This document shows, piece by piece, positions 1,141 through 62,536 of a stretch of DNA of 64,000 nucleotides (the stretch's first letter is position 1; each line of letters opens with the position of its first letter). A program made the position numbers and the translations under genes. Where the stretch lies: the NCBI GenBank assembly GCA_026400815.1, contig JAPLOI010000004.1, forward strand, positions 124,001-188,000. Reading direction: 5' to 3'. Below the pieces are notes generated by a model. That model saw nothing but the letters and a program-made list of their open reading frames with translations, made no database searches and was not told the origin of the DNA. Source of the stretch: Alphaproteobacteria bacterium (GTDB lineage Bacteria; Pseudomonadota; Alphaproteobacteria; Acetobacterales; Acetobacteraceae).

Positions 1141-2277
1141 TCAGCCCACCTGGTCGGCCAGCAGGCCCAGGTGATAGGCGCTGTCGCCCCAGCTGTGTTC
1201 GAACACCATCACGCGGCGGAAGTAGTGGCCGACGGCGTACTCCTCCGTCATGCCGATGCCGCCGTGCAGCTGGACCGAGTTCTGGGTGACGAAACGGCCG
1301 GACTGGCCGACGCCGACCTTGGCCATGGAGATGTTGCGGGTACGCTCCGCCGCATCCTCCTCATCCACCATCATGGCGGCGAGCATGGCCATGGAACGGG
1401 CCTGCTCCACCTCGATCAGCATATCGGCCGCCTTGTGCTGCAGCACCTGGTTGGTGCCGATGGGGCGGCCGAACTGCACGCGGGTGCGCAGGTAGTCCAG
1501 CGTCATCGTGTGGGCGGCTTCGCAGGCGCCCACTGTTTCCGCGGCGAAGGCGGCGATGCCGGCCTGGGTCACGCGCTCGATGATGCCGTAGGCATCGCCC
1601 ACGGTGCCGAGCACGGCTTCGGGGCCGAGCTTGACAGTGGAGAGCGAGATTTCGGCAGCACGGGTGCCATCACGCATGGCGTAGCCGCGGCGAGCGACGC
1701 CGGGGGTGTTGGCGGGGACGAGGAAGAGGGTGAGCCCCTCCTTGTCCATGCGGTCACCACCGGTGCGGGCGGAGACGACCAGCATATCGGCACAGTCGCC
1801 GTGCAGGACGACGGACTTGGCGCCTTCCAGCACCCAGCCGGAGCCGTCCTTGGTGGCGGTGGTGAGAACATCCGTCAGGTCGTAGCGGGCCTGCTGTTCG
1901 CCATGGGCCCAGCCCAGCTTGAGCGAGCCGTCGACAATCTGGGGCAGGATCTCGCCCTTCTGCGCCTCGTTGCCCGCGTATTTGATGGCGCTGCCGCCGA
2001 GGACGACGGTGGCGAGGAAGGGTTCGACCACCAGCGAGCGGCCGAAGGCTTCCATCACCATCATGATGTCGACGGCGCCGCCGCCGAAGCCGCCGTACTC
2101 CTCGGGGAAGGGGAGGCCGAGCAGGCCGAGCTCGGCATACTTCTCCCACATCTCCTGGGACCAGCCCTGGGCGGACTTAATGTAGCCGCGGCGCGCATCG
2201 AAGGCGTAGCGGTCTGCCAGCAGGCGGCTGACGCTGTCGTTCAGCAGCCGTTGGTCTTCTGTGAGTTCGAAATCCAT
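1141..2277 (-). CDS. Acyl-CoA dehydrogenase, PimD-like (378 aa)
   Basis: FAD-dependent acyl-CoA dehydrogenase that would introduce an alpha-beta double bond into an acyl-CoA. Visible landmarks are the N-terminal helical domain from DFELTEDQRLLNDSV, the RTRVQFGRPIG segment and the C-terminal LHGGIGMTEEYAVGHYFRR segment that borders the active site. Its ATG overlaps the stop codon of the upstream 406-aa dehydrogenase by one base (TGATG), so the two are translationally coupled. The pair resembles the small and large subunits of pimeloyl-CoA dehydrogenase (PimD/PimC) and also fits the heteromeric pattern of steroid side-chain dehydrogenases. The assignment to a particular substrate is open. A longer reading to 2388 was rejected because it only extends into the neighbouring gene. 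Confidence 0.88.
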   Translation of the reverse strand: MDFELTEDQRLLNDSVSRLLADRYAFDARRGYIKSAQGWSQEMWEKYAELGLLGLPFPEEYGGFGGGAVDIMMVMEAFGRSLVVEPFLATVVLGGSAIKYAGNEAQKGEILPQIVDGSLKLGWAHGEQQARYDLTDVLTTATKDGSGWVLEGAKSVVLHGDCADMLVVSARTGGDRMDKEGLTLFLVPANTPGVARRGYAMRDGTRAAEISLSTVKLGPEAVLGTVGDAYGIIERVTQAGIAAFAAETVGACEAAHTMTLDYLRTRVQFGRPIGTNQVLQHKAADMLIEVEQARSMAMLAAMMVDEEDAAERTRNISMAKVGVGQSGRFVTQNSVQLHGGIGMTEEYAVGHYFRRVMVFEHSWGDSAYHLGLLADQVG

Positions 2278-3497
2278 CAGAGCCTCAGGATCGCTTTGTT
2301 CAGGATGTTCTTCTGGATCTCGTTCGTGCCGCCGTAGATGGAGGCGGCGCGGAGCATGAGGTACGGCGGGGCGGCATAGCCGGCCCATTCCGGCCCGATC
2401 AGCGGCTCATTGTCGCCGGACTCGCGGTTGAGCAGATCCAGCTCCTTGGCCCAATCGGGCATGGCGAGCGGGCCGGCGATGTCCATGACCAGCTCGGCCG
2501 TGTCCTGCAGCAGCTCGGTGCCCTTGATCTTGAGGACGGAGCTGAACGGATCCGGCTTGCCATCGGAGTTGCCGGCGGCCTTGGCGACGACGCGGAGCTG
2601 GGTGAGTTCCAGCGCCTTGGCCTGGACCTGCAGCTTGGCGACGCGCTGGCGGAAGCCGGCATCCTCGATCAGGGGCTTGCCGTTCTGGCGCACGTCGCGG
2701 GCGAGTTCCTGGGCGTAGTTGATGCGCTCCATCGACTTGCCGAGGCGGGCGATGCCGGTGCGCTCGTTGCCCAGGAGGAACTTGGCGACGTCCCAGCCCT
2801 TGTTTTCCTCATAGACCCGGTTGGCGACCGGGACCTTCACGTCGTCGAAGAAGACCTCGTTGAGGTGGTGGCTGTTGTCGATCGAGATGATGGGACGGAC
2901 GGTGATGCCCGGCGTCTTCATGTCGATCAGCAGGAAGCTGATGCCTTCCTGCGGCTTGCGGGCGTTGGGATCCGTGCGGACCAGGGCGAAGCACCAGTCG
3001 GCGTGGTGGGCGGTGCTGGTCCAGATCTTCTGGCCGTTGACGATGTAGTCGTCGCCCACGCGCTTGGCGGCGGTCTTCAGCGAGGCCAGGTCGGAGCCGG
3101 AGCCGGGCTCGGAGAAGCCCTGGCACCACCAATCCTCGAGGTTGGCGGCGCGGGGCAGGATGTGGGCCTTCTGCTCCGGCGTGCCGAATTGGATGATGAC
3201 CGGGCCGATCATGGTGATGTTGAAGCCATTCACCTCCGGCGCGTGGTTGATCTGATTTTCCTCCTGGAAAATCATGCGCTGGGTGGGCGACCAGTCGGTG
3301 CCGCCATAGGCCTTCGGCCACTTATAGGTGGCCCAGCCCTTCTTGTTCAGGATCCGCTGCCAATCCACGATGTCCTGCTTGGTGGGGCTGTAGCCCAGGC
3401 GCAGGCGCTCGCGGGTGCGGGCGGGCAGGTTCTGGCGAATGAAATCGCGGACTTCCTTGCGGAAGGCGACCTCTTCCTCGGTGAAGCGAAGATCCAT
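2277..3497 (-). CDS. Acyl-CoA dehydrogenase, PimC-like (406 aa), copy 1
   Basis: Acyl-CoA dehydrogenase of the large-subunit type. It starts at MDLRFTEEEVAFRKEVRDF and contains the family blocks WWCQGFSEPGSGSDLASLKT, NGQKIWTSTAHHADW and FLLGNERTGIARLGKSMERI. It is highly similar along its whole length to the dehydrogenase at 3719-4939, so the two arose by duplication. The open frame continues upstream to 3896, but that stretch is the AT-rich repeat and not protein-like; MDLRF aligns exactly with the start of the paralogue. Its stop overlaps the next dehydrogenase's start, which implies a two-subunit enzyme. Substrate unknown. Confidence 0.9.
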   Translation of the reverse strand: MDLRFTEEEVAFRKEVRDFIRQNLPARTRERLRLGYSPTKQDIVDWQRILNKKGWATYKWPKAYGGTDWSPTQRMIFQEENQINHAPEVNGFNITMIGPVIIQFGTPEQKAHILPRAANLEDWWCQGFSEPGSGSDLASLKTAAKRVGDDYIVNGQKIWTSTAHHADWCFALVRTDPNARKPQEGISFLLIDMKTPGITVRPIISIDNSHHLNEVFFDDVKVPVANRVYEENKGWDVAKFLLGNERTGIARLGKSMERINYAQELARDVRQNGKPLIEDAGFRQRVAKLQVQAKALELTQLRVVAKAAGNSDGKPDPFSSVLKIKGTELLQDTAELVMDIAGPLAMPDWAKELDLLNRESGDNEPLIGPEWAGYAAPPYLMLRAASIYGGTNEIQKNILNKAILRL

Positions 3498-3574
3498 TGG
3501 GTTTCCTCTCGCGCCGTGACGCTGTTGCCAGGGATTATGTGGGGTGGTTTTGCGGGGGGCAAGGGTGGGGAGGA

Positions 3575-3717
3575 AGCGCGTTCTTTTTTGAAAAAAAGAA
3601 CCAAAAAACGTTTGTTTGTTTGCCTGCGGCGGGCACCTCGACCGCCTGCACAGGCGGCCGGGGCGCGAACAAATAAAGTCTTTTTGCTTCTTTTTCTTCA
3701 GAAAAAGAAGATTCTTG
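3575..3717. repeat. AT-rich double-hairpin intergenic repeat, copy A
   Basis: Left arm at 3581-3609 folds as TTCTTTTTT against AAAAAAGAA. Right arm at 3675-3711 folds as TTCTTTTTC against GAAAAAGAA and is close to the reverse complement of the left arm. Between them lies a GC-rich core with a perfect palindrome, CCGCCTG-CA-CAGGCGG (3642-3657). Two other copies occur at 58493-58625 and 60323-60435 with the same arms but different cores. Here it sits between two acyl-CoA dehydrogenase paralogues. It resembles REP/BIME-type elements and carries no coding sequence. A weak transcription-ending role for the gene at 3719-4939 is possible but not shown. Confidence 0.85.
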
Positions 3718-3718
3718 C

Positions 3719-4939
3719 TTAAAGTCTTAGCACAGCCTTGTTCAGGATGTTCTTCTGGATTTCGGTCGTGCCGCCGGCGATGCTGGAGGCGCGGTGCATC
3801 AGGTAGGGTCCGGCGGCGAAGCCGGCGTAGTCGGGACCGATGGGCGGCTCGTTCTCGCCGGACTCGCGGTTCAGCAGGTCCAGTTCCTTGGCCCATTGCG
3901 GCATGGCGAGCGGGCCGACGGCGTCCATGATGAGTTCGGACGTGTCCTGGCCGAGTTCGCCGCCCTTGATCTTGAGGAGGGAGGAGAAGGGGTCGGGCTT
4001 GCCGTCGGACTGCTGCATCATCTTGGCGACGACGCGGAGCTGGGTGATTTCGAGCGCCTTGGCGCGGATTTCGAGGGAGGCGACGCGTTCGCGCTGGAGC
4101 TTGTCGTCCAGCAGGGGGGCGCCGTGGTTGCGGAGGTGGGGGCTGAGCTCGCGGATGTCTTCCAGGCGGGCCATGGACTTGCCGAGGCGGGCGATGCCGG
4201 TGCGTTCGTTGCCGAGGAGAAACTTGGCGACGTCCCAGCCCTTGTTTTCCTCATAGACGCGCTGGGTAACGGGGACGCGGACGTCGTCGAAGAAGACTTC
4301 GTTGAAGTGGTGGCTGCCGTCGATGGAGATGATCGGGCGGACGGTGATGCCGGGGGTCTTCATGTCGATCAGCAGGAAGCTGATGCCTTCCTGCGGCTTG
4401 CGGGCCTGGGGGTTGGTGCGGACGAGGGCGAAGATCCAGTCGGCGTGATGGGCGGTGGAGGTCCAGATCTTCTGGCCGTTGACCACGTAGTGGTCGCCAT
4501 CGAGGACGGCGGAGGTTTTCAGCGAGGCGAGGTCGGAGCCGGAGCCGGGTTCGGAGAAGCCCTGGCACCACCAGATGTCGAGGTTGGCGGTGGGGGCGAT
4601 GAAGCGTTCCTTCTGCTCCGGCGTGCCGAACTGGATCAGCACCGGGCCGATCATGGTGATGTTGAAGCTGTTCACCTCTGGCGCATGGGCAAGCATGTTC
4701 TCGTCTTGGAAGATCATGCGCATGGTGGGGGACCAGGCCTGGCCGCCGTATTCCTGGGGCCATTTGTAGGTGGCCCAGCCCTTCTTGTTCAGGATGCGCT
4801 GCCAGGTGACGACATCGGATTTGGTGGGCGGGTAGCCCAGGCGCATGCGTTCCAGGGTTTTGGCCGGGAGGTTCCCGCGGATGAAGGCGCGGACTTCCTG
4901 GCGGAAGGCGATTTCTTCCTCGGTGAAGCGCAGTTCCAT
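3719..4939 (-). CDS. Acyl-CoA dehydrogenase, PimC-like (406 aa), copy 2
   Basis: Second large-subunit-type acyl-CoA dehydrogenase, beginning MELRFTEEEIAFRQEVRAF, the same length as its neighbour at 2277-3497. It shares the blocks WWCQGFSEPGSGSDLASLKT and FLLGNERTGIARLGKSMARL. Most differences lie in the region around residues 255-300 and near the C terminus (EPPIGPDYAGFAAGPYLMHR here), where acyl-chain specificity may differ. It is separated from copy 1 by repeat A (221 nt), so coupling is likely weaker than between copy 1 and the small-subunit gene. TAA stop at 3719-3721. Substrate unknown. Confidence 0.9.
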   Translation of the reverse strand: MELRFTEEEIAFRQEVRAFIRGNLPAKTLERMRLGYPPTKSDVVTWQRILNKKGWATYKWPQEYGGQAWSPTMRMIFQDENMLAHAPEVNSFNITMIGPVLIQFGTPEQKERFIAPTANLDIWWCQGFSEPGSGSDLASLKTSAVLDGDHYVVNGQKIWTSTAHHADWIFALVRTNPQARKPQEGISFLLIDMKTPGITVRPIISIDGSHHFNEVFFDDVRVPVTQRVYEENKGWDVAKFLLGNERTGIARLGKSMARLEDIRELSPHLRNHGAPLLDDKLQRERVASLEIRAKALEITQLRVVAKMMQQSDGKPDPFSSLLKIKGGELGQDTSELIMDAVGPLAMPQWAKELDLLNRESGENEPPIGPDYAGFAAGPYLMHRASSIAGGTTEIQKNILNKAVLRL

Positions 4940-36873: not shown

Positions 36874-36964
36874 GGCACCTGGGGAAAACTCTCCCCGAAA
36901 TCAACTAAATCTCTGAATCCGCAAGAAAACATCTCCTACATTCGTCCACACCCTGTTCATGTTT

Positions 36965-56341: not shown

Positions 56342-56564
56342 AATGCTGCACCGCAACGAGCGCGATGCAAAAAATCCCCTGAATTCAATATATTATTCCG
56401 TAATACTAAGAAACAAAGCTTGACTCGCATCGGCACGCCGGCCTGACCTACGTTCCCGCCGCATGTGCCGCCCCTACCCCGCGGCGAAGGCAATCCCGCT
56501 GGCGCAGCGCCAGGGAGCTTCACGGCGCCACCCATCATGGCGCCAGGCGACAGGATGTCAGGCG

Positions 56565-57619: not shown

Positions 57620-58489
57620 ATGCTCCGTCCCGCCTGCGCCGCCCTGCTCGCCCTGCTCGCGCTGCCCCTCGGTGGCTGCGAGACCATGTCGTCGCTCAAC
57701 CCCTTTGCCGACAGCAAGCCGAGCACCGCCGAGGAAGCCGCTGCCGCCATTCCGCCAGCGGAAACGCTCTATAATCGCGGCGTCGATGCGATCAACGCCA
57801 AGCGCTACGGCACCGCCGCCACGCAGTTCGACCTCGTCGAGCAGAACTACCCATATTCCAGCTGGGCCGTGAACGCCCAGATCATGCAGGGCTACGCCGA
57901 ATACCTGCAAAGCAAGTACACCTCGGCCATCGGCACGCTGGACCGCTTCATCCAGCTCCACCCCTCCCACCGCGATGTCGCCTACGCCTATTACCTGCGC
58001 GCCCTGTCCCACTACGAACAGATCGCCGACGTCCAGCGCGACCAGCGCACCACGCAGGAAGCGATGGGCGCCCTGCAGGAAGTGGTCAACCGCTTCCCAG
58101 AAACCGCCTATGGCCGCGACGCCAAGCTCAAGATCGACCTCGCCCGCGACCATCTCGCCGGCAAGGAGATGGAAATCGGCCGCTGGTACCTGAACCAGAA
58201 GCTCTACACCGCCGCGATCAACCGCTTCCAACGCGTGGTGGATGAATTCCAAACCACCAACCACGTCGCCGAGGCCCTGCACCGCCTCACCGAGATCTAC
58301 CTACTGCTCGGCCTCACCGACCAGGCCCGCAAAACCGCCGCCGTGCTCGGCCACAACTACCCCGGCAGCTCCTGGTACGCCGACAGCTACGACAACCTCG
58401 TCAGCGCCGGCGCCGCCCCGCCCGATGGCGCCCGCCAGTCGTCCGACCAGCCCGGCATGCTCGGCCGGCTCTGGCGGTCGGTATTTTGA
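57620..58489 (+). CDS. bamD: Outer membrane assembly lipoprotein BamD (289 aa)
   Basis: Component of the BAM complex that inserts beta-barrel proteins in the outer membrane. The lipoprotein signal (MLRPACAALLALLALPLGGC) places the acylated cysteine at about residue 20. TPR repeats follow: ETLYNRGVDAINAKRYGTAA, AIGTLDRFIQLHPSHRDVAY and EIGRWYLNQKLYTAAINRFQ. An in-frame GTG at 57608 would add four residues; neither start has a clear ribosome-binding site. Repeat copy B begins just after its stop. Confidence 0.93.
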   Translation: MLRPACAALLALLALPLGGCETMSSLNPFADSKPSTAEEAAAAIPPAETLYNRGVDAINAKRYGTAATQFDLVEQNYPYSSWAVNAQIMQGYAEYLQSKYTSAIGTLDRFIQLHPSHRDVAYAYYLRALSHYEQIADVQRDQRTTQEAMGALQEVVNRFPETAYGRDAKLKIDLARDHLAGKEMEIGRWYLNQKLYTAAINRFQRVVDEFQTTNHVAEALHRLTEIYLLLGLTDQARKTAAVLGHNYPGSSWYADSYDNLVSAGAAPPDGARQSSDQPGMLGRLWRSVF

Positions 58490-58492
58490 TCA

Positions 58493-58625
58493 AGAAAGCC
58501 TTCTTTTTGTGAACAAAAAGAAGCAAAAAACCTTCATTCACTGCGCCGCGGCCTCTCCGTCTATGCCGCAGCCAGTCGGAAAAGTCTTTTTGCTTCTTTT
58601 TCTTCAGAAAAAGAAGACTCTTCCT
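58493..58625. repeat. AT-rich double-hairpin intergenic repeat, copy B
   Basis: Left arm 58501-58534 is a perfect hairpin TTCTTTTTGT-GA-ACAAAAAGAA. Right arm 58581-58617 is identical to those of copies A and C over about 36 bases (AAAGTCTTTTTGCTTC, then TTTTTCTTCAGAAAAAGAAG). The GC-rich core (58536-58579) contains an imperfect palindrome around GCCGCGGC and GCCGCAGC. The right arm ends about 10 nt before the recN start codon and fills the space where its ribosome-binding site should be. Confidence 0.88.
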
Positions 58626-58627
58626 TC

Positions 58628-60322
58628 ATGCTAACCACCCTCTCCATCCGCGATGTCGTCCTGATCCAGCGCCTGGACCTCTCCTTCGGCGCCGGCCTCA
58701 CCGTGCTCACCGGCGAAACCGGCGCCGGCAAGTCCATCCTGCTCGACAGCCTCGGCCTCGCCCTCGGCGCCCGCTCCGAACAGGGCCTGGTCCGCGCCGA
58801 GGCCGAACAGGCCTCCGTCGCCGCCGTCTTCGCCACCCCCCGCACCCACCCCGCCTTCGATCTCCTCGCCGAACAGGGCATCGAGGCGGAAGACGAAATC
58901 GTCCTGCGCCGCATCGTCGCCAAGGACGGCCGCAGCCGCGCTTTCGTCAACGACCAGCCCGTCAGCGCCGCCCTCCTGCGCCGCCTCGGCGCCACCCTGG
59001 TCGAAGTCCAGGGCCAGCACGACCAGATGGGCCTCGCCGACCCCGCCGGCCACGCCGCCCTGCTCGATGCCTTCGGCGTGCCCGAACCCCTGCGCACCGA
59101 ATCCGCCGCCGCCTGGCGCGCCTTGCGCGAAGCCACCACCGCCCTGTCCCGCGCCCGCGACTCCATCGCCGCCGCCGAACGCGACCGCGAATGGCTCACC
59201 CACGCGGTCGAGGAACTCTCCCACCTCGCCCCGGAAGAAGGCGAAGAAACCCGCCTCGCGGAGGAACGCCAGGCCCTCCAGCAAGGCGAACGCCGCGCCG
59301 AAGCCGTCGCCGCCGCGCTCTCTGAACTATCGCCGCAATCCGGCCGCAGCCGCACTGCCGGCCCCGCCGCCGCCCTGCGCTCCGCCAGCCGCGCCCTCCA
59401 GCGCCTCGTGCCCAACAACGCGCCGGATGCCCCCAACCCCGCCCAGGCGGCGCTGACCGCACTCGAAGCCGCCGAAACCGCCCTGGCCGAAGCCGAATCC
59501 CTCCTCAGCCGCCTCGCCCAGGATGTCGAAGCCGACCCCCGTCGCCTGGAAGCCACGGAAGAACGCCTCTTCGCCCTGCGCGCCGCGGCCCGCAAGCACT
59601 CCGTCGCCGTGGCCGACCTCCCCGGCTTCCTCGCCTCCCTGCAAACCCGCCTCGGCGCGCTGGAAACCGGTGCCGAGGAAGTCGCCGGCCTCGAACGCGC
59701 CGTCGCCGAAGCCCGCACCCGCTACGTCGCCGCCTGCGCCCGCCTCACCCACTCCCGCCAGGCCGCCGCCACCAAGCTGGAAAAGGCCATCGCCCGCGAA
59801 CTCCCACCCCTCAAGCTGGAACGCGCCCGCTTCGTCGCCGAGGTCGCCCCCCTCCCCGAAACCGGCTGGGGCATCGGCGGTGCCGATTCCGTCCGCTTCC
59901 TCATCTCCACCAACCCCGGCCAGCCGCCCGGCCCCCTGGCCCGCGTCGCCTCCGGCGGCGAACTCTCCCGCCTCATGCTGGCCCTCAAGGTCGTCCTCGC
60001 CGGCGGCTCCACCGTCCCCACGCTCGTGTTCGATGAGGTGGACAGCGGCATCGGCGGCGCCACCGCGGCCGCCGTCGGCGAACGCCTCGCCCGCGTCGCC
60101 GAAGGCGTGCAGGTCCTCCTCGTCACCCACTCCCCCCAGGTCGCCGCCCGCGGCGCCGCCCACCTGCGCGTCATGAAACAGGTCACCCGCGGCCGCGCCG
60201 AAACCCGCGTGGAAATGCTCAGCGCAGACGAACGCCGCGAAGAAATCGCCCGCATGCTCGCCGGCGAAACAGTCACCGAACAGGCGCGTGCTGCGGCGGA
60301 TAGCCTGCTGGCAAGCCTCTAA
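58628..60322 (+). CDS. recN: DNA repair protein RecN (564 aa)
   Basis: SMC-like ATPase acting in double-strand-break repair. Walker A is TVLTGETGAGKSILLDSLGL. The central part is a long Ala/Glu-rich coiled coil (about residues 150-370). The C-terminal half carries SGGELSRLMLALKVVLAGG and Walker B TLVFDEVDSGIGG, followed by VLLVTHSPQVAARGAAHLRV. The ATG comes only about 10 nt after repeat copy B, and no purine-rich ribosome-binding site other than the repeat's GAAGA is present. Repeat copy C begins at its stop codon. Confidence 0.95.
   Translation: MLTTLSIRDVVLIQRLDLSFGAGLTVLTGETGAGKSILLDSLGLALGARSEQGLVRAEAEQASVAAVFATPRTHPAFDLLAEQGIEAEDEIVLRRIVAKDGRSRAFVNDQPVSAALLRRLGATLVEVQGQHDQMGLADPAGHAALLDAFGVPEPLRTESAAAWRALREATTALSRARDSIAAAERDREWLTHAVEELSHLAPEEGEETRLAEERQALQQGERRAEAVAAALSELSPQSGRSRTAGPAAALRSASRALQRLVPNNAPDAPNPAQAALTALEAAETALAEAESLLSRLAQDVEADPRRLEATEERLFALRAAARKHSVAVADLPGFLASLQTRLGALETGAEEVAGLERAVAEARTRYVAACARLTHSRQAAATKLEKAIARELPPLKLERARFVAEVAPLPETGWGIGGADSVRFLISTNPGQPPGPLARVASGGELSRLMLALKVVLAGGSTVPTLVFDEVDSGIGGATAAAVGERLARVAEGVQVLLVTHSPQVAARGAAHLRVMKQVTRGRAETRVEMLSADERREEIARMLAGETVTEQARAAADSLLASL

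Positions 60323-62536
<2,214 letters not shown>

Follow-up and report, generated by a model that had tools for sequence, protein, structure and literature searches.

A REPIN-like palindromic cassette behind stop codons in Acetobacteraceae and in phage contigs, a possible leaky terminator or 3'-end shield

What kind of element sets two A/T-rich hairpins around a GC-rich core, and does so repeatedly, in the GC-rich genome of a member of the Acetobacteraceae? The question is raised by a 64-kb stretch of contig JAPLOI010000004.1 (hereafter the window), which belongs to a genome of 5.11 Mb in 89 contigs (hereafter the focal genome). The window holds three copies, at about 3569-3722, 58490-58628, and 60322-60437, each with a GC-rich core set between two A/T-rich hairpin arms in inverted orientation. 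A sequence-only reading of the window had picked out these twin hairpins, considered them not explained by plain terminators, and suggested a mobile REP/BIME- or MITE-like family. The twin-hairpin observation itself was confirmed at the scale of the genome. Two arm types occur, G (GGTTC) and C (GCTTC); a 19-base C-arm pattern (at most 2 mismatches) has 122 + 126 = 248 matches in the focal genome and a 30-base G-arm pattern (at most 3 mismatches) has 134 + 122 = 256, against 0 matches for either arm with reversed-pattern controls.

Copy 1 opens with a purine-rich outer flank, GGAGGAAGCGC (3569-3579), which belongs to extended inverted ends made of AAGN repeats and has similar counterparts in the other copies. 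Its left arm (3580-3613) is of the G type and consists of GTTCTTTTTTGAAAAAAAGAAC, a perfect hairpin at 3580-3601, followed by CAAAAAACGTTT. The variable core (3614-3674) contains the stem CCGCCTG (3642-3648)/CAGGCGG (3651-3657), and the right arm (3675-3710), of the C type, joins AAAGTCTTTTTG to the perfect hairpin CTTCTTTTTCTTCAGAAAAAGAAG (3687-3710). The second outer flank (3711-3722) reaches the TAA stop of the upstream acyl-CoA dehydrogenase gene (3719-4939, minus strand), the stop codon of which is in contact with the element; another acyl-CoA dehydrogenase gene (2277-3497, minus strand) lies downstream. Genes related to the acyl-CoA dehydrogenase gene of the window, at 53-99% identity, were seen in metagenome-assembled genomes titled 'Asaia bogorensis' (L051, L053, L054, and L097), three of which (L051, L054, and L097) also hold arms resembling those of the cassette family; the species label looks doubtful.

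Copy 2 (58500-58616) has two C-type arms, with hairpins at 58500-58523 and 58593-58616, and lies between genes for a YfiO-like lipoprotein (57620-58489, plus strand) and a protein with a RecF/RecN/SMC N-terminal domain (58628-60322, plus strand). Copy 3 (60330-60426), with a G arm (60330-60363), the core TGGCACGCGTGCCA (60370-60383), and a C arm (60391-60426), separates the latter gene from an NAD-dependent DNA ligase gene (60458-62536, plus strand). The earlier claim that all three copies share the same two arms thus holds for copies 1 and 3, which both pair G with C, and fails for copy 2, the left arm of which differs. Likewise, the arms are inverted with respect to each other as had been stated, albeit imperfectly so, and the cores do differ and are palindromic in copies 1 and 3, the core of copy 2 being an imperfect palindrome. 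Copies 1 and 3 have RNA folding z-scores of -4.34, -4.22, -3.68, and -4.32 over both strands, and each can adopt two rival folds, one with three independent hairpins and the other a single long hairpin involving pairing between the A tract of one arm and the T tract of its partner. An inverted-repeat scan of 3400-3900, which omits runs of short units, listed nothing, and an Rfam search of the window placed RNase P alone above threshold. Two further AT-rich blocks in GC-rich surroundings, at 56358-56431 and 36898-36942, are not arms of the cassette family.

In the 1.264 Mb surveyed (25% of the focal genome), 76 elements were found, 56 two-armed and 20 one-armed, corresponding to a cassette of about 110-150 bp roughly once every 17-23 kb. 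Arms were defined by regular expression, with a relaxed second arm needed in 21 of the 56 pairs, and genes were called with a simple, uncurated codon-usage ORF caller. Pairing is strongly biased: 51 pairs are G-C, 4 C-C, and 1 G-G (P = 1e-10 under random pairing with equal types). Identical 20-base inner arms occur at none of 26 loci, represented by the first listed element in each of 24 genomes from other genera and 2 from the same genus, and among the 13 same-type pairs at these loci the length of the A run differs in 12. Nevertheless, when 76 printed copies from other genera were judged by eye, 72 had differing and 4 had matching inner arms; the arm difference is therefore a tendency and not a rule, and the proposition that arms are never identical was dropped. 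G-G pairs also exist in phage contigs. An exact two-G-arm pattern matched 0 of 289 genomes, and 0 times in the focal genome as well, a result that concerns exact G-G pairs and not the usual form of the cassette. The proposal of a dispersed family, conserved in its arms and variable in its cores, was borne out by the genome-wide arm matches and by cores that are mostly palindromic, and with so many further copies the scenario in which the window held the only ones fails. At C18:187347-187836 (L040) in the focal genome, a small gene, the product of which looks hydrophobic, is enclosed by two single arms, as though it had taken the position of a core.

The position of the cassette relative to genes is narrowly defined. 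All 76 elements have midpoints that lie outside called genes or no deeper than 60 bp within them; overlap with the end of a called gene, in most cases a start, is confined to a few elements and reaches 13 bp at most. For gene 3' ends facing two-armed elements, the distance to the arm motif is 15-30 bp in 49 of 60 cases, compared with 7 of 50 gene 5' ends, and the stretch between stop and arm is made up of AAGN-like tetramers. The cassette occupies the slot directly behind stop codons. Two-armed elements are found in tandem (32), convergent (14), and divergent (9) contexts and once at an edge, the enrichment of convergent sites being borderline (14/55, P = 0.05).

Stop codons adjoining elements are TAA in 33 of 55 cases, versus 108 of 889 other genes (odds ratio 10.8, P = 1.5e-15). 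At nine orthologous sites compared by eye, TAA is present in 6 of the 9 filled and in 0 of the 9 empty alleles, which have TGA (8) or TAG (1), and in three of the six TAA-ending filled alleles the stop has moved by at least one codon. No TAA enrichment was observed beside phage copies (2/21 versus 39/281), indicating that the stop codon is not built into every copy. TAA as an intrinsic property of the element was consequently rejected, the codon being enriched on the chromosome and not beside phage copies.

Occupancy was compared between members of the genus (nine genomes, G000 to G008), excluding flanks shorter than 150 bp or below 75% identity; the two directions of comparison share sites. 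Fifteen elements of G003 could be located in the focal sequence; 11 of these have no arm there, and at 8 of the 11 sites the focal gap is at least 85 bp shorter, being similar or longer at the other 3. Elements from other relatives lack an arm in the focal sequence in 4 of 23 cases, one of which (G008, C10) has a 1.3-kb focal gap, and 7 of 34 focal sites have no arm in the relative. Individual examples include the absence of window copies 2 and 3 from G003, of the element at C31:8071 from G008, and of that at C37:25312 from G001, while the focal genome lacks one element that G004 has. Orientation is reversed at C31:8071 in G003 and G005. At the site of copy 1, the same core is found in G001 and G004, a different core in G007 despite flanks that are 95% identical, and the arms in opposite order in G005; at the site of copy 3, G004 has an unrelated core and G001 a single hybrid hairpin, as from a deletion between direct TTCTTTTT repeats of the arms. 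Hence, orthologous sites gain and lose the cassette, and its orientation and core change there; since occupancy differs between relatives, copies are not tied to the same genes in all of them. Separately, the stretch C31:16567-16646 (L043) coincides with synteny breaks or inversions in four more distant congeners, G003, G005, G006, and G008.

A strict two-arm pattern was detected in 44 of 397 Acetobacteraceae genomes and in 18 of the 102 genera tallied, with patchy occurrence within genera and 0 matches for the controls. Outside the family it matched 0 of 187 other alphaproteobacterial genomes, diverged arms escaping the pattern; this class-wide draw comprised 190 genomes, of which three were from Acetobacteraceae (the focal genome included) and only the focal genome was positive. 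Two plasmids of Pseudoroseomonas cervicalis carry the cassette. One of these copies lies between two convergent stop codons, its hairpins at distances of 9 and 4 bp from them, and another P. cervicalis plasmid match ends 5 bp from a stop. A 34-bp match in an Enterococcus plasmid was judged unrelated.

The cassette occurs in phage contigs as well. The exact arm patterns match 29 and 15 stretches in IMG/VR, in contigs that may be proviruses or include host DNA. PHROG families were assigned to 17 of the 20 proteins tested from 12 of these loci, including tail, portal, or terminase proteins in ten loci. In one phage contig, a copy separates the terminase gene from the portal gene and a second copy adjoins the tail sheath gene, and some contigs hold several copies within 10-15 kb. 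After removal of duplicates and contig ends, 76 viral arms could be placed, 65 of them paired and 11 single. In 8 of the 11 single arms the hairpin side faces a gene 3' end, the orientation required of a sense terminator; 2 are oriented the opposite way and 1 is ambiguous. In MG945182 (Microviridae sp., from cattle blood; L291:660-720), a GC hairpin is followed by one exact arm. This arrangement reads as a putative terminator in the phage sense, and the arm suggests that the microvirus may have an Acetobacteraceae-like host.

With its inverted conserved ends, variable spacer, extragenic position, and high copy number, the cassette matches REP/REPIN elements in layout, and the same plan of two conserved inverted palindromic ends around a variable spacer would be expected if it were a REPIN or BIME moved by a RAYT (TnpA-REP) transposase of the Y1 family, a gene for which is present in the focal genome. 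However, Y1/RAYT matches (PF01797) were obtained in only 3 of the 9 genus members (G000, G001, and G007), G002-G006 and G008 giving no match in assemblies that, like the others, are incomplete. C-arm matches number between 188 and 520 in all nine members, and the two richest genomes, G003 (520) and G005 (433), are both among those without a PF01797 match. Moreover, in G000, G001, and G007 the RAYT genes sit in loci of 2.9-3.3 kb that contain no arms, and the arms and flanks of 35 listed pairs lack a GTAG or CGTC head. The RAYT-like Y1 loci (L137 in the focal genome, on C53; L135 in G001; L138 in G007) are flanked instead by GTAG-type GTAGCCCGCATC..GATGCGGGC palindromes; this RAYT-like gene with its GTAG-type REPs is a second, classical REP system in the focal genome. 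The RAYT-driven REPIN was accordingly rejected as a candidate, and we regard mobilization by RAYT, the simple form of which is largely refuted, as extremely improbable. REP/BIME membership, as advanced in the sequence-only reading, fares no better, since the head motif is missing, no RAYT match was obtained in the two genomes richest in C-arm matches, and the RAYT-type genes that were found belong with a different palindrome. An IS200/IS605-derived element (PATE) would call for a Y1 transposase acting in trans, which is again without match in 6 of the 9, incomplete, assemblies.

The other half of the original classification, a MITE, would make the cassette a non-autonomous derivative of a DDE or other transposon, with the arm types as its ends, moved in trans and surviving mostly at gene 3' ends. 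Like a MITE, the cassette is small, has terminal inverted repeats, which are usually non-identical, and contains no coding sequence; the empty sites in relatives, the copies in other genera with the same or similar ends around different cores, and the patchy distribution all agree with such an origin. On the other hand, target-site duplications gave no signal across the 56 pairs (mean longest shared flank word 4.50 versus 4.60 in the control, sd 0.13), in elements whose precise boundaries are blurred by the AAGN flanks. In addition, intervals of 150-5000 bp between outward-facing arms, inspected by eye in 1.26 Mb of the focal genome (25%) and 0.42 Mb of G003, showed no transposase: four of the seven hold ordinary-looking genes and three no called gene. 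Finally, arms stay conserved while cores diverge at one and the same site, unlike decaying MITE copies. MITE membership is thus not established, and this origin appears rather unlikely to us.

Arms are almost unchanged while cores vary, core turnover being much faster. At C31:4126, compared in four genomes with flanks about 95% identical, the arms are common nearly base for base, whereas in the core two pairs are altered on both sides (T-A to C-G), with G-T intermediates, as judged by eye. Core halves also pair better with their own partner than when swapped (32/43 copies with cores of 30-50 bp, P = 7e-5). Some cores contain other palindromic repeats. Among palindromes of the focal genome, GTCATTGCGAGCG or near variants of it, which are CGTC-REP-like, are present within or beside cassettes at C37:57693, C49:29730, and C55:97701 (L214, L188, and L199). 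PMC3733652 reports CGTC repeats to be absent from Acetobacteraceae, a statement with which the CGTC-REP-like GTCATTGCGAGCG palindromes of the focal genome contrast.

Core folding has no strand preference relative to the orientation of the element (27 versus 22). Neither is there a preference for the gene-sense strand, either in core folding (sense lower in 10, antisense lower in 19, n = 30, P = 0.09) or in whole-element folding (sense lower in 10/32, P = 0.06), and RNA-level selection on the gene-sense strand is therefore unsupported by both. The lack of strand preference relative to the element would suit a structure acting at the DNA level only, a cruciform or a site for nucleoid or replication proteins, with 3'-end placement as a by-product of purifying selection. 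The competition between the three-hairpin fold and the single long hairpin points the same way, as do the usually non-identical arms, which would be expected if long perfect palindromes are avoided. Such a structure should nevertheless be at home anywhere between genes, whereas the cassette keeps a narrow distance to stop codons; copies lie between phage structural genes, and identical arms do occur (the 4 of 76 copies from other genera and the phage G-G pairs). We consider a DNA-only role very unlikely.

What, then, would the cassette do in a transcript? The T-tail score of the G arm (4.8) exceeds the 99.9th percentile of the genome (3.4), and that of the C arm (3.2, or 2.6 in another register) lies between the 99th (2.1) and 99.9th percentiles, such that the cassette presents the combination sought in an intrinsic terminator, namely a stable hairpin with a T tract after it, located behind a gene. 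The earlier view that plain terminators do not explain the elements was thus fair, yet incomplete, as the arms supply T-tails in both directions. A simple terminator scan listed the outer arm hairpins of copies 1 and 2 and no combination of core hairpin and T-tail, with totals near the shuffled expectation (6 versus 3.3 and 1 versus 1.5).

One explanation is that the elements are efficient, selected bidirectional intrinsic terminators, with arms matched to the host RNA polymerase or a termination factor and spread by recombination, mobility being secondary. A core hairpin with T-tails in both directions is what such terminators would need, and the sites behind stops and between convergent stops, the orientation of the phage half-elements (8/11) together with the Microviridae record, and the clustering of copies within 10-15 kb in some phage contigs are all in keeping with it. 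Many chromosomal sites are less accommodating. The next called start is less than 60 bp away at 18 of the 32 tandem sites, copies 2 and 3 interrupt a row of YfiO-like, RecF/RecN/SMC_N, and NAD-dependent DNA ligase genes, the called ligase start follows the end of copy 3 after about 30 bp, and a simple scan for promoter-like sites gave none in 58300-60700. In tandem pairs, the arm that would terminate the upstream gene is the far arm, whereas the near arm, beside the stop, is the better conserved in 16 cases against 8 for the far arm, with 8 ties (T-tails, 5 to 5). Among the 20 one-armed copies of the focal genome, 9 are oriented opposite to a sense terminator, 3 as a terminator, and 8 are convergent. 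Gain and loss at orthologous sites and patchiness within genera add to these difficulties. Such sites, and the phage copy between terminase and portal genes, are difficult to square with a strong terminator, and placement in gaps that look operon-like argues against full termination. Selected, efficient terminators hence strike us as a tentative and somewhat unlikely explanation.

The operon-like placement, the conservation of the near arm, and the orientations of one-armed copies lead us to prefer a leaky terminator or 3' shield. We propose that the element is a REPIN-like palindromic cassette of Acetobacteraceae that does not depend on RAYT and that, once transcribed, may act as a leaky bidirectional terminator or as a shield of the 3' end; judging from sequence comparisons, we put the probability of this reading at about one half. 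In both directions of transcription, the core hairpin followed by the T-tail of an arm would act as an intrinsic terminator that leaks; the hairpins of the arms would protect the 3' end of the upstream message. Leaky termination combined with 3' shielding would enable the cassette to end convergent genes and yet allow read-through in operons. Its persistence behind genes may reflect a transcript that is harmless or useful at a gene 3' end. Copying or conversion among copies may keep the arms alike, and cores may be swapped or corrected via their own palindromes.

A more ambitious version would make the cassette a self-spreading terminator. Here, a putative Acetobacteraceae recombinase recognizing two distinct A/T hairpin ends would insert it at or inside stop codons, where an AAG end would regenerate TAA; the insert would serve as a bidirectional 3'-end signal, swap its cores, and travel with phages, which would use whole or half copies. 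Taken as a whole, we deem this scenario decidedly unlikely. Should the leaky-terminator or 3'-shield reading be correct, part of the Acetobacteraceae and their phages would share a 3'-end module that rewrites the stop codon and the 3' untranslated region, altering gene ends at a couple of hundred places that differ between sister species. This would amount to a RAYT-free route for the evolution of transcript ends, operon coupling, and chromosome breakpoints. The arms may further act as a sequence tag tying uncultured phages to Acetobacteraceae hosts, and the tendency of paired arms to differ provides a handle for finding the responsible enzyme or constraint.

No paper describing the cassette was found in the open literature, to which the search was confined and subscription journals do not belong, including a text search for six arm sequences (0 hits). 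Integron attC sites and uptake sequences were weighed as further candidates and put aside. Several known systems share parts of its design. The AT-rich stem-loops of low-GC firmicutes (PMC1590033) have the same A-tract and T-tract flanks, a position near stops, and a proposed bidirectional function; the cassette differs in its GC-rich genome, arms that are nearly identical across about 250 copies, the hairpin nature of these arms, variable core, and presence/absence polymorphism. Paired uptake-signal terminators of Neisseria and Pasteurellaceae are likewise inverted motif pairs that form terminator hairpins, and in Neisseria they lie mostly between convergent genes (PMC1852404). Those signals are 9-11 nt long and generally number at least 1000 per genome, whereas the cassette has arms of about 35 bp, about 250 per type, and is gained whole. 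The intrastrand triplex motif characterized in PMC4666352 is GC-rich, unlike the cassette arms, which nonetheless look suggestive of a triplex.

Closer parallels are found among REPs. GTAG REPs often supply the stop codon (TAG) of flanking ORFs, and REPs lie near coding ends (PMC3733652). GTAG- and CGTC-tagged REPs thereby resemble the cassette, which is likewise close to coding ends and beside which TAA is favored on the chromosome; compared with them, the cassette differs in head, size, and base composition, and its codon is TAA instead of TAG and is not enriched beside phage copies. REPINs and BIMEs, for example those of Pseudomonas fluorescens (PMC3116915), have in common with it conserved inverted palindromic ends, a pairing variable spacer, an extragenic position, and hundreds of copies. 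The cassette arms, in contrast, are A/T-rich, about 35 bp long, without a GTAG or CGTC head, and usually of different type, and the RAYT of the focal genome serves another repeat. The cassette thus looks like a REPIN or BIME in layout and habits while failing the tests of RAYT link and head motif.
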